DNA of 28,453 bases from a virus. Below the pieces are notes generated by a model. It saw only the letters and a program-made list of their open reading frames with translations, did no database searches and was not told the origin of the DNA. The translations under genes and the position numbers were made by a program. The stretch lies in the IMG/VR virus record IMGVR_UViG_3300009605_000100, positions 1-28,453 of that record. One strand, 5' to 3'. Numbering within the stretch: position 1 is the first letter of the stretch; each line of letters starts with the position of its first letter. Positions 19,361 to 28,453 of the stretch are shown here, piece by piece.

Positions 19361-20086
19361 ATGACATTACAACATAAAATATTTCAAGATAGAATTAACG
19401 GATTGAACGAACAGATACCCGCAGGTGGTGGTAATGGATTTGGTCAAACAGATCCTTCTATACCTTCTATACAACAAATAGGTAATGTTCCTCTAAGAGG
19501 AAGATCAAGCAGCACTCAACGTATGACAACTAGAGCCCTTTATGGTAGTACTTTGTCCTTCGAGTTATGGGATATTTCACCAAAATTTCAAGAAATGTGG
19601 GATACTTACATAACCGCAGGTGGAGCATGGCAAAAAGATGTTCCATGGCCAGGCTTACCAGTATTCATTAACCCTGAAACTGGGGAAAATGTTAGGTTTG
19701 AACTACCAGAGCCAGGCGAAATGCAGTGGCCTCCAGAAGGTCCAGCGTTTGAATACTGGGCATCTGTGTTGATGTGGTTTATAGATGGTAGTGGCACCGC
19801 TAGGGGTTGGCCGGGAGGAAACGCAGATTGGTGTCCAGCAGGTAATTGTCATGATTCTCCATTATGGAGAATTTGGATACAGGGTGGACAACCAGAACTA
19901 AGCCAGCAATTTATAAATCTTATTAGTGCTATCGGAAGCAATAATCAGTTTTGGTTTCTTGTAATGATGGGGACTAACCCAACCAATAACGAACCTTTAA
20001 GTGAAGGTGACAATTTCTACGACGAATACGTTATGTTCTGGGACATTTTCTTTGGTGGACAGTGGGGGCCAGGTGGTGAAGATTAA
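19361..20086 (+). CDS. Tryptophan-rich orphan protein between gp15 and gp16
   Basis: A 241-residue protein that I do not recognise. It sits where T4 has gp15 directly followed by gp16. It contains 14 Trp residues (about 6%) and many Gly, Pro and Phe. Examples are ELWDISPKFQEMWDTY (about 68-83), DVPWPGLPVFINPETGENV (about 93-111), the CPAGNC segment within residues 155-170, and the C-terminal VMFWDIFFGGQWGPGGED. There is no signal peptide, membrane helix or enzyme motif. An exact TATAAATA box ends only seven bases before the ATG, and no Shine-Dalgarno sequence is visible there, so translation from this start is unclear. The own late box and intrusive location resemble a moron-type cassette or an extra virion protein. 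Confidence 0.6.
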   Translation: MTLQHKIFQDRINGLNEQIPAGGGNGFGQTDPSIPSIQQIGNVPLRGRSSSTQRMTTRALYGSTLSFELWDISPKFQEMWDTYITAGGAWQKDVPWPGLPVFINPETGENVRFELPEPGEMQWPPEGPAFEYWASVLMWFIDGSGTARGWPGGNADWCPAGNCHDSPLWRIWIQGGQPELSQQFINLISAIGSNNQFWFLVMMGTNPTNNEPLSEGDNFYDEYVMFWDIFFGGQWGPGGED

Positions 20087-24811: not shown

Positions 24812-26335
24812 ATGCCAATTGAGTTGTTCGGTTTCAGCATCGGAAGAAAAAACGCAAAGACTGTAGAAGACAAAAGAAGCGAACTAAAGTCATTTGTCAA
24901 ACCTGAAAGCGAAGACGGTGCATCATACATTGATGCCGGTGCAGGATACTTTGGAACATATATTGACTTTAATCAAGAAGTCAAAAGCGAAGTCGAATTT
25001 GTTAACAGATACAGAGAGATGGCGCTCCATCCAGAGTGTGAATCTGCTATTGAAGATATATGTAACGAGGCAATAGTTTACGACGAAGAAAAGCAAAGTA
25101 TTCAGTTAGCACTCGATAAAACAGATCTTTCAGACAGTATTAAAGACAAAATACAAGATGAATATGACCACATATATCATATACTAAATTTTACAAATAA
25201 AGGATTTGAAATTTTTAGAAGATGGTATATCGATGGTAAACTTTATTATCATATGGTTGTTGATTCTAAATCACCAAAAAAGGGTATTCAAGATATTCGA
25301 TATGTTGATCCCACTAAGATAAAGAAGATAATCGAAATAGAAAAAGAAAGAACAGTAGACAAAAGAGGTGAAGGTGGAGAACTTGAGGTAATTAAAAAAA
25401 CAGAAGAATATTATATCTTTAAAGAAAAACCAGAAATGTCTGTTGGTATTAAAATTGCTCCAGAAGCAGTTTGTTATGTAACTTCTGGTCTTTATGATGC
25501 AAGTAGCAAAAATAGAAAGGTTATCAGTTATTTGCATAAAGCAATTAAACCACTAAACCAACTTAGAATGATTGAAGATGCTGTGGTGATTTACCGTATT
25601 GCACGTGCACCAGAAAGGAGGATTTTCTACATCGATGTAGGGAATTTACCAAAAACAAAAGCAGAACAATACGTTCGATCCATAATGAATAAATATCGTA
25701 ATAAACTGGTTTATGATGCTAATACTGGTGCTATCCGTGATGATAAACGACATATGTCTATGCTTGAAGATTTTTGGTTACCACGAAGAGAAGGTGGTAA
25801 AGGAACAGAAATTTCAACTCTTGATGGTGGTCAAAATCTAGGTGAAATGGAAGATGTATTATATTTTCAAAAGAAATTATATCAAGCATTGAGCATCCCA
25901 AGAACAAGATTAGAGTTGGGTGAACAGTTTAGTATGGGTCGTGCTTCAGAAATTAATAGAGATGAAGTTAAATTTATGAAATTCATTGATAGATTACGTA
26001 ATAAATTTAATGATATATTTAAAACTTTACTTAAGACTCAATGCCTTCTTAAAGGTATTATGACAGATGAGGATTGGGAAAAAATCGCAAGCGATATCAA
26101 ATTTGACTATGTTCGTGACAACCACTTTGCAGAATTAAAAGACTATGAAATTTTAACAGAAAGAATGAACATTCTTCGTGATGTCAATGATTATATTGGC
26201 AAATATTATTCGGTTGAGTGGGTAAGAAGAAATATCTTACAACAATCTGAAGAAGAAATGAAAGACCTAGATAAAGAGATAGCAAAGGAACGAGAGTCAG
26301 GAATTATTACCGATGACGGTAATGAGGGGTATTAA
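24812..26335 (+). CDS. 20: Portal vertex protein gp20
   Basis: A 507-residue portal protein (T4 gp20 has 524). A dodecamer at one head vertex nucleates prohead assembly and serves as the DNA channel for the terminase. Hallmarks are YREMALHPECESAIEDICNE (67-86), YRIARAPERRIFYIDVGNLP (261-280), HMSMLEDFWLPRREGG (314-329) with TEISTLDGGQNLG (332-344), and IPRTRLELGEQFSMGRASEI (362-381). The C-terminus is acidic and charged. AAGGAAT near 24800 is the ribosome site. The adjacent prohead-core genes follow immediately, as in T4 (20-67-68). Confidence 0.96.
   Translation: MPIELFGFSIGRKNAKTVEDKRSELKSFVKPESEDGASYIDAGAGYFGTYIDFNQEVKSEVEFVNRYREMALHPECESAIEDICNEAIVYDEEKQSIQLALDKTDLSDSIKDKIQDEYDHIYHILNFTNKGFEIFRRWYIDGKLYYHMVVDSKSPKKGIQDIRYVDPTKIKKIIEIEKERTVDKRGEGGELEVIKKTEEYYIFKEKPEMSVGIKIAPEAVCYVTSGLYDASSKNRKVISYLHKAIKPLNQLRMIEDAVVIYRIARAPERRIFYIDVGNLPKTKAEQYVRSIMNKYRNKLVYDANTGAIRDDKRHMSMLEDFWLPRREGGKGTEISTLDGGQNLGEMEDVLYFQKKLYQALSIPRTRLELGEQFSMGRASEINRDEVKFMKFIDRLRNKFNDIFKTLLKTQCLLKGIMTDEDWEKIASDIKFDYVRDNHFAELKDYEILTERMNILRDVNDYIGKYYSVEWVRRNILQQSEEEMKDLDKEIAKERESGIITDDGNEGY
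26324..26329 (+). promoter_or_regulatory. Shine-Dalgarno supporting a TTG start
   Basis: GAGGGG lies eight bases before the TTG at 26338, in the last codons of gp20. The next ATG in that frame is about 40 codons further on. This site therefore supports initiation at the TTG (or at the adjacent TTG at 26341). Confidence 0.55.
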
Positions 26336-26337
26336 AA

Positions 26338-27840
26338 TTGTTGTTTAATAGCAAAGATATAATTGAGGCATTGTCAGATAAAGATTTTAATAAGGCAGCG
26401 GGTATTGCTAAAAAAGGTCTTGCTGAGGTGTCTTTGTCTTATATTGACCATGCAAAAATGACCTCATCTAAAGGAATGGTGTCTGAAGCAGAGACACCAC
26501 CAGATAAAGAAGATGTTCAAGGTACAGAAGACGACCCGACTCTTGATCCATCTAAAGATAGGGAGTATTTTCTTAAATCCTTTGAACAAGGCGATGTCTT
26601 AATCACAATTAAGACTATTGGTGTTGGTAAAAATAAACCAGTGTCTGTTTATATAGACGATGTACGATGGGAGATGTTCCCCGGCCCGACCAATGCTGAA
26701 AAAGAAGCAAAAAAATTCATAAAAACCAAGCAGTATGATTTATGGAGAGATAGAAAAAATTTAAGCAACGGTGTTGTTGATGAACCTGAACCTAAAAAAG
26801 AAGAAGAAAAAGAAATAAAGGTAAAGAAAAAGGTAAAGAAAAAGGTAAAGAAAAAAAAGAAGGTGGTAAAAGAATCCATAAATTTTCTTGAAACGGTTGA
26901 CATGACTGTTGGTGGTAAGACTTTTACCGTGTCAATCGCTAATACACCAGAATCATTACAAAAAGGTTTAATGTTTGAAACTGATATGGACACTGATAGG
27001 GGAATCCTATTAGTGTTTGAAGAGCCAGCAAGACATGGCATTTGGATGAAGGATACAAGTATTCCATTAGATGTGGTATGGATGACTGAAGTGGGTACAG
27101 TTGTCGATGTTCAGCGTCTTCAACCCCATGATATTACAATTAAATATCCACATGCACCCGCAAAATATGTCTTAGAATTAAATGCTGGTGAGTTTACTGG
27201 TAGAATAGGTGATATAGTAGAAATGGGCGGATTTCTGGAAAATGAACTAAATGAAATCTCTATACAGGGAAGAAGAAATATAGCAAAGGCAGCAAAAAGA
27301 ACTGCTAAAAGACGTGCTAAAACCACACAACGCAAAAAGAAACGACGAAAAACTAAGGAAGAACTCATCACAAAGGCCAGAAAGATGGCTAGGGACAAAA
27401 TAAAGAAAAAGATTCTTAAAGGTAGAAGTGAGAATGAATTAAGTTATGCTGCAAGAGAAGCCTTAGAAAAGAAAGTTAACAAAATGAAAGGAAAAATTGA
27501 AAAAATCGCTAAGAAGATGCTTGTTGTTGCTAAAAAACAAGAAAAAGAAAGACTTCTAGCAATGAGAGCACCATCAGAAAAAAATGAAGAAACAGTTTTA
27601 GATAATATTGAATACATTGTTAACAATAATAGAAGAGAGATGTTGGTTGAATTTGATAATGGAGATACTATGCAAGTGGATGAGACTACTGCAAATACCA
27701 TTCTTACAATGCACAAGGCACTAAATAAAAGAAATAAGATTAAATTAAGAGAAATGATAAATAAAGATAAACACGGTTTTATGAAAGCCTTAAAATTTTC
27801 ATTAAACCATTTAGATAATGTAAGGGACTTAAAAGGATAA
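26338..27840 (+). CDS. Chimeric prohead-core-region protein with DUF192 domain
   Basis: A 500-residue multidomain protein in the gp67/68 position. Residues 1-50 (SKDIIEALSDKDFNKAAGIA, then KKGLAEVSLSYIDHAKM) resemble the short helical start of gp67-type prohead-core proteins. Residues 76-140 include KPVSVYIDDVRWEMFPGP. A Lys-rich linker (about 153-178) is encoded by a 12-bp tandem repeat. Residues about 189-297 form a DUF192 domain: SLQKGLMFE, GILLVFEEPARHGIWMKDTS (WMKDT at 236-240), IPLDVVWM, KYVLELNAGEF and GRIGDIV. Residues 312-410 are a strongly basic helical stretch. Residues 418-500 (MLVEFDNGDTMQVDETTANT, then FMKALKFSL) form a final small domain. Translation starts at TTG. A scaffold or internal head role is inferred; the function of DUF192 is unknown. 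Confidence 0.75.
   Translation: MLFNSKDIIEALSDKDFNKAAGIAKKGLAEVSLSYIDHAKMTSSKGMVSEAETPPDKEDVQGTEDDPTLDPSKDREYFLKSFEQGDVLITIKTIGVGKNKPVSVYIDDVRWEMFPGPTNAEKEAKKFIKTKQYDLWRDRKNLSNGVVDEPEPKKEEEKEIKVKKKVKKKVKKKKKVVKESINFLETVDMTVGGKTFTVSIANTPESLQKGLMFETDMDTDRGILLVFEEPARHGIWMKDTSIPLDVVWMTEVGTVVDVQRLQPHDITIKYPHAPAKYVLELNAGEFTGRIGDIVEMGGFLENELNEISIQGRRNIAKAAKRTAKRRAKTTQRKKKRRKTKEELITKARKMARDKIKKKILKGRSENELSYAAREALEKKVNKMKGKIEKIAKKMLVVAKKQEKERLLAMRAPSEKNEETVLDNIEYIVNNNRREMLVEFDNGDTMQVDETTANTILTMHKALNKRNKIKLREMINKDKHGFMKALKFSLNHLDNVRDLKG
26821..26856 (+). repeat. Three 12-bp tandem repeats coding a Lys/Val linker
   Basis: The unit GTAAAGAAAAAG occurs twice exactly and a third time with one change, encoding the KVKKKVKKKVKKK run of the DUF192-bearing protein. 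Such a repeat can gain or lose copies by slippage without breaking the frame. Confidence 0.85.
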
Positions 27841-27846
27841 ATTTAC

Positions 27847-28203
27847 ATGAGCGCCAAAGAAATTGTTGAAAACTTGCTAGATGAAAATGCATATGCTGCA
27901 AAAGAAGGGATAGAAAATCTACTATTTTGTAAAACAGCAGACACACTTAGAGACTTAACCCCTGCCTCAGCAGATAGGAGTTTTAGAGTAGAAAATGCAG
28001 TACCATTTTTGAGTGAAAAAGAACAAAGTCCTGAGCAAAAAGCGTATAGAGCGTTGTTCGATCGGATCTTGAAAAAGTATGGTGTTGATAGCCCTAACGA
28101 CCTTGAAGATAGTAAGAAAGACGATTTTTTCAATGAAGTAGAACGAGAATGGAAAAAAGACCCTGCCAACGATAACGAAGGTGAGGGCGAGGAGAATGAT
28201 TAA
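27847..28203 (+). CDS. Acidic prohead-core (gp67/gp68-like) protein
   Basis: A 118-residue charged protein. The N-terminus (AKEIVENLLDENAYAAKEGI, then ENLLFCKTADTL) has the helical pattern of T4-like prohead-core proteins such as gp67 or gp68. Residues about 66-103 (AYRALFDRILKKYGVDSPND, then KKDDFFNEVEREWKKD) resemble a short C-terminal helical motif common in phage scaffold or core proteins. The tail is strongly acidic (EGEGEEND). AAAGGAT ahead of the ATG, at a spacing of about eight bases, supports the start. It lies directly downstream of the chimeric protein and portal genes, as 67/68 do after 20 in T4. Assignment to the prohead core is by position and pattern. Confidence 0.6.
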   Translation: MSAKEIVENLLDENAYAAKEGIENLLFCKTADTLRDLTPASADRSFRVENAVPFLSEKEQSPEQKAYRALFDRILKKYGVDSPNDLEDSKKDDFFNEVEREWKKDPANDNEGEGEEND

Positions 28204-28206
28204 TTC

Positions 28207-28453
28207 ATGACTATTCAAAACAGACATTATTTACAAAAGATTAATGGTATTGGTCATCGTCGGCAACAACTTGACGAGCAAGCGGGGTCACTATTTCCAC
28301 AGGGACAACTTGCAAGAGTTCTTGGAGAACAAGGATCTAGACGACGGAATGGACGAGGACAACAACAAGGTCTGCCACCCAATGGTGCTAGACCCAATGG
28401 TGCTAGACCCAATGGTGCTAGACCCAATGGTGCTAGACCCAATGGTGCTAGAC
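28207..28453 (+). CDS. Unrecognised Gln/Arg/Gly-rich protein with PNGAR repeats (3' truncated)
   Basis: The frame from the ATG at 28207 stays open to the window end (82 codons). The N-terminal 57 residues are rich in Gln, Arg and Gly (TIQNRHYLQKINGIGHRRQQ, then SLFPQGQLARVLGEQG). From residue 58 the protein is a perfect PNGAR pentapeptide repeat, five copies to the edge. T4 has the prohead protease gene 21 here, but this N-terminus does not look like gp21. GAGGAG at 28189-28194 is 12 bases upstream of the ATG, a loose but usable spacing. A basic, low-complexity internal head or scaffold-associated protein is possible, but function is unknown. Confidence 0.6.
   Translation, partial: MTIQNRHYLQKINGIGHRRQQLDEQAGSLFPQGQLARVLGEQGSRRRNGRGQQQGLPPNGARPNGARPNGARPNGARPNGAR
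28378..28452 (+). repeat. 15-bp tandem repeat coding PNGAR, at the window end
   Basis: Five perfect consecutive copies of CCCAATGGTGCTAGA, in frame with the gene starting at 28207. The sequence stops one base into a sixth copy. The total copy number is unknown because the window ends inside the array. Confidence 0.95.

Follow-up and report, generated by a model that had tools for sequence, protein, structure and literature searches.

In T4, the core proteins gp22, gp67, and gp68 are for the most part degraded and do not remain in the head. gp67 and gp68 measure 80 or 141 residues, and gp67 is a short protein with a long acidic tail. DUF192 (COG1430) occurs in bacteria and archaea in small, often exported, stand-alone proteins; structures of the domain have been solved, and we know of no function for it. 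The T4 internal proteins are ejected from the head together with the DNA (PMC9026906; PMC3012670). A leader of ten residues, MKTYQEFIAE in IPII and IPIII, directs them into the prohead core, and gp21 cuts these proteins after L/I-X-E (PMC9026906). A literature search found no link between DUF192 and phage virions. Here, we describe a T4-like phage gene, termed X, in which DUF192 is one module of a head-region protein.

The window analyzed, the whole 28,453-nucleotide stretch of IMG/VR record IMGVR_UViG_3300009605_000100, is a T4-like virion cluster consisting of baseplate genes, neck genes, gp16, gp17, gp18, gp19, gp20, X, Y, and a cut gene Z. A 241-residue open reading frame (ORF) at 19361–20086, between gp15 and gp16, had no Pfam or PHROG match. 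Like T4 gp67 and gp68, gene X (26338–27840, plus strand, as are gp20, genes Y and Z, and the parts of X located below) sits after gp20 and before gp21: it starts 2 bases past the gp20 portal gene (24812–26335; PF07230, Portal_T4, E = 1e-179). X is followed by gene Y (27847–28203), another core gene of the gp67 type, whose end is acidic (hhalign of Y N-termini against gp67, 91%; same order in relatives L004 and L005), and by gene Z (28207–28453), truncated at the contig end. In L005, the order is gp20-X-Y-Z-gp21-gp22-gp23. A perfect 15-bp tandem repeat encoding the peptide NGARP occupies 28377–28453 in gene Z and is probably where the assembly stopped; contig L001 has two more copies, followed by other sequence.

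The first-pass annotation, made from the letters alone, had read X as one uninterrupted frame, and this was confirmed: the frame runs unbroken over 500 codons, with TTG 26338 at one end and the stop at 27838–27840 at the other. Since the homologues start with ATG at MFNSKDII, one codon downstream of TTG 26338, the true start of X is either TTG 26338 or position 26341. L001 was 100% identical to the window across the whole X region. Every part of X was present in the viral contigs L002, L003, and L005 at 67–68% identity to the window, and every part except the basic stretch described below was present in L004 at 61–62%. The identical L001 and the four homologues rule out an assembly chimera or a frameshift joining two genes.

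The domain structure of X was investigated using an AlphaFold model built from a 30-row alignment (an earlier 5-row version gave a pLDDT of 52). Residues 1–50 (26338–26487) form a predicted gp67-type helical N-terminus, as had been proposed, with helices at residues 5–13, 17–27, and 31–44. Alignment with T4 gp67 N-termini by hhalign gave probabilities of 77–91%, so that the homology appears moderately, not strongly, supported. X has no acidic tail such as that of T4 gp67; the acidic end is found in gene Y. A small strand-rich domain of four strands and two helices, domain B, which had been missed in the first-pass annotation, was modeled at residues 74–141 (26557–26760); it is 81% identical within the clade, and no relative was found in phage records. 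By eye, a strand-helix segment in L264 resembles domain B. The Lys-rich linker that follows (26773–26877) had been described as a repeat, and it is present, but comparison with relatives indicated a 21-residue expansion of a 12-bp repeat that is specific to the window.

DUF192 occupies residues 183–298 (26884–27231) and is followed by Leu-Asn-Glu (27247–27255), a predicted gp21 site (motif from PMC9026906) at the same place in homologues. The basic helical stretch noticed earlier corresponds to residues 307–412 (27256–27573), termed KR; residues 299–412 carry a net charge of about +28, and KR is probably DNA-binding. The small C-terminal domain also proved real (residues 418–494; 27589–27819). 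Its net charge is 0 and it is the fastest-diverging part of X, sharing 37–41% identity with its counterparts in the rest of the clade. Homology of the C-domain or KR to T4 gp68 seemed likely by eye from an ALNK motif and a basic tail, and was not supported by hhalign, with probabilities of 0.3% for the C-domain and 3% for KR.

The DUF192 assignment was supported by several analyses. A Pfam search matched DUF192 (PF02643) at residues 196–287 with 84.2 bits against a curated cut-off of 27 (E = 7e-24), and the solved structures 3pjy and 3m7a were also matched by sequence. The invariant and near-invariant columns G..G, W-M-K-x-T-x-I-P-L-D, and V-L-E-x-N-x-G are kept in X. In the AlphaFold model, the pLDDT of this region was 95–98, and Foldseek matched it to 3pjy and 3m7a with target TM-scores of 0.76–0.79; as the alignment rows included DUF192 relatives, this fold match is a consistency check and no independent proof. 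Structure prediction, which had been suggested as a check, was thus consistent with the DUF192 fold. X contains the same domain as the bacterial and archaeal proteins by HMM and fold. It departs from them in that DUF192 is a module within a 500-residue protein and there is no signal peptide.

The possibility that these modules are recombination junk, swapped in without lasting function, was considered at this point. The confinement of the Lys-linker expansion to the window and the missing KR domain in L004 would suit such an origin. However, the same architecture is kept at 61–68% protein identity, and comparisons among clade members gave dN values far lower than dS for domain B, DUF192, and KR. 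We therefore regard this explanation as very improbable.

Since a survey of the gene after gp20 in marine T4-like phages had been proposed, we fetched 54 viral contigs whose portal genes are related. The architecture of X was found in L001–L005, lacking KR in L004. Where the DNA reached far enough, most sister contigs had a short post-gp20 gene of about 133–240 residues, which has a helical start like that of X and a homologous C-domain (phmmer down to 1.5e-9; hhalign 97.9%; HMM about 1e-20 or better), and DUF192 was not detected in 22 of the 22 sister contigs tested. X itself has the traits of this marine T4-like post-gp20 family, namely the gp67-type start and the C-domain directly behind gp20. 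As the short genes have both ends and no DUF192, X is the ordinary post-gp20 gene with modules inserted between its two ends. Other expanded versions with other inserts were identified in L264 (363 residues; C-domain E = 5e-14) and L032 (397 residues), indicating that inserts are tolerated mid-gene. The C-domain was seen in one further setting, L123, and so can move too. The expanded L264 gene (2838–3926) lies in a phage that also carries a cytidyltransferase-DUF192-KR composite.

Such inserts may be structural: X would stay in the scaffold or the mature head interior, where DUF192 would be a folded block that acts as a spacer or determines size, KR would neutralize DNA charge, and neither would act in the host. 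The position and both ends of X are of the core-protein type, KR is extremely basic and in this resembles the tail of T4 gp68, and the same gene holds other inserts in other phages. A scaffold-specific role, however, leaves two observations unexplained, the DUF192-KR pair in composites that are not core proteins and a DUF192 behind a capsid-targeting-like leader (both described below), and it does not sit easily with the retained conserved positions of DUF192. We consider a purely structural role unlikely, though the most serious of the alternatives to a cargo role.

Searching viral contigs for DUF192 confirmed at least 498 loci; we kept 80 and examined 78 for neighbors. T4-type virion genes were nearby in the fetched DNA at 60 of the 78, and 28 of the 78 loci sit just upstream of gp17. 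The first-pass annotation had described DUF192 as normally a small stand-alone bacterial or archaeal protein; these counts indicate that it is not unusual in phage virion regions. Most of the viral DUF192 proteins examined are multi-domain, and several phage copies (L118, L123, and L180) are plain DUF192 ORFs without a leader. Further fusions were observed. In L179 and L183 (6001–7068; contigs of 83 and 281 kb), DUF192 is joined to a segment that bears a metallopeptidase-like HEVHH motif, and in L111 and L112 (5983–6813) it begins a 277-residue ORF whose end matches WYL weakly, below the Pfam cut-off. A 188-residue DUF192 protein (L010, 2989–3555) is encoded in the human gut phage contig MT835470, where apparent virion genes adjoin, and has a relative in MT835492. 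A BFVD match to a Cellulophaga phage phi4:1 structural protein (E = 0.024) gained no backing from tblastn with the gut-phage DUF192 and was dropped.

The pair found in X also occurs in other genes. In the L107–L110 composites, a cytidyltransferase is followed by DUF192 and then KR, the order seen in X; their DUF192 is 53–55% and their KR 43–46% identical to that of the window. The KR match (phmmer, E = 2e-14) scored 71 bits, compared with at most 25 in 300 same-letter shuffles, which rules out that the likeness is mere Lys/Arg composition. A search with the window KR recovered no viral contigs beyond its own clade and no match in phage records; with the L108 KR as a query, phiM12-type phages were reached (phiM12_458, E = 1e-13). 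In the 157-kb contig G026, a cytidyltransferase composite has KR (E = 2e-28) and lacks DUF192, which is there a separate gene (L106). The cytidyltransferase composite of the window-clade contig G001 has neither DUF192 nor KR. These differing combinations indicate that the modules move between phage genes. The first-pass annotation had considered a captured host fold; X did not take up DUF192 by itself from a host, and the DUF192-KR pair is common to other T4-like phages. In the contig of L005, L276 encodes a 711-residue composite in which a cytidyltransferase is followed by an apparent ATP-grasp and a retropepsin-like segment, judged by eye.

In a tree of 155 DUF192 domains, built from few columns with bootstrap values not fully settled and long branches flagged, the window clade, L106, and L107–L110 formed one group (100/93), with L106 the closest relative of the window-clade DUF192. 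Cyanophage composites formed another group (100/99), and the gut-phage copy fell elsewhere on a long branch. The separate groups imply that virion-type genes of phages recruited DUF192 on at least two occasions. Marine relatives of the T4-GC190 cytidyltransferase composites (phrog_3041, phrog_395) carry DUF192-KR in the same order as X, whereas their carrier is a nucleotidyltransferase composite whose gene lies in another part of the genome. The T4-GC119/phrog_727 composites upstream of gp17 resemble X in having a DUF192 module in a long virion-region protein, but their DUF192 is of another lineage and their partner modules differ (DUF6321 and more). The cultured cyanophages Bellamy, S-SM2, and SynMITS9220M01 have DUF192 in their GC119 proteins. 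A GC119/phrog_727 homologue without DUF192 is annotated as a virion protein in S-SCSM1.

Evidence on head targeting was next compared. The cytidyltransferase T4-GC190 was detected in purified S-SM1 virions (PMC3037559). This protein is about 50% identical to the L108 cytidyltransferase and begins MKKFSAFLNE-A, resembling the T4 leader MKTYQEFIAE-A. L106 has the leader MKSFKRHITE with DUF192 directly behind it, and leader-like starts also occur in L115 and L136. With a pattern drawn up after inspecting T4 leaders, a leader-like start was found in 24 of 478 ORFs of DUF192-bearing loci, compared with 0.2% of shuffled DUF192-protein N-termini; among DUF192 proteins with complete starts, it was found in only 3 of 66. 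Two neighboring genes in L106 (2207–4520) have T4-leader-like starts, LKSFLQFLSEA and MRTFKQYISEV, and may be further head cargo.

Alternatively, DUF192 might act before or during assembly, for instance on precursors or host envelope components, the core fusion giving only late expression and entry into the virion being unneeded. Cellular DUF192 proteins are non-virion and several are exported: Saro_0823 is periplasmic (PMC3608174), and L184, a cellular-type protein, has a lipoprotein-like signal. The plain leaderless phage ORFs would also fit. On the other hand, X is an in-frame fusion between two apparently core-targeting ends, and DUF192 recurs in virion-type genes. An infected-cell role without packaging thus seems improbable, though less improbable than recombination junk.

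We favor, at somewhat better than even odds, the explanation that X is a prohead-core protein acting as a carrier, with DUF192 packaged as head cargo. The proposal that X is an internal head protein is supported by the above results, and packaging, gp21 cleavage, and ejection of DUF192 are what we infer as its route. The presence of the DUF192-KR cassette in other, probably head-packaged proteins suggests a protein that enters the host with the viral DNA. The gp67-type N-terminus and the conserved C-domain would place X in the prohead core, where it would co-assemble with gp22 and gp21. gp21 could then cut at the candidate L/I-X-E sites E10, E30, and E306, predicted by counting a very short motif, and thereby separate DUF192 from KR. 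The KR piece would bind packaged DNA, and the DUF192 piece would stay in the head and be ejected into the next host to act on a host target.

The idea is a variant on the known T4 internal head proteins. Its likeness to IPI–IPIII and Alt lies in the proposed route, that is, cargo in the prohead core, a cut at L/I-X-E, and ejection with the DNA; no sequence homology between X and the T4 internal proteins was found. Leaders like MKTYQEFIAE occur in the cassette relatives L106, L115, L136, and GC190, whereas X starts with (L)MFNSKDIIEA and has no T4-type leader. This argues against the cargo explanation, and core entry would instead rest on the gp67-type start and the C-domain. The insert might also share the fate of T4 gp22, gp67, and gp68. 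The site between DUF192 and KR reads INE, VNE, or LDE in relatives and other carrier genes; the V-N-E of L005, an L/I-X-E site inside DUF192 in L002, and the shortness of the motif all tell against the proposed cleavage. In addition, the frequent export of cellular DUF192 proteins is a poor simple fit with cytoplasmic delivery, and L004 indicates that KR is dispensable in some members.

Should X carry DUF192 as cargo, T4-like phages would have a second route for head loading, in which cargo is built into a core protein and no short targeting leader is used, and at least two independent lineages would tie DUF192 to phage virions. The wider view, in which a core scaffold gene is a cargo-loading carrier in marine T4-like phages, whatever is inserted between its core-targeting ends being packaged, released by the prohead protease, and injected, and in which DUF192 is a widely and repeatedly recruited injected effector, its first phage role, is tentative, and we would put it at rather less than even. 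If true, the post-gp20 gene would be a place to look for injected phage proteins.
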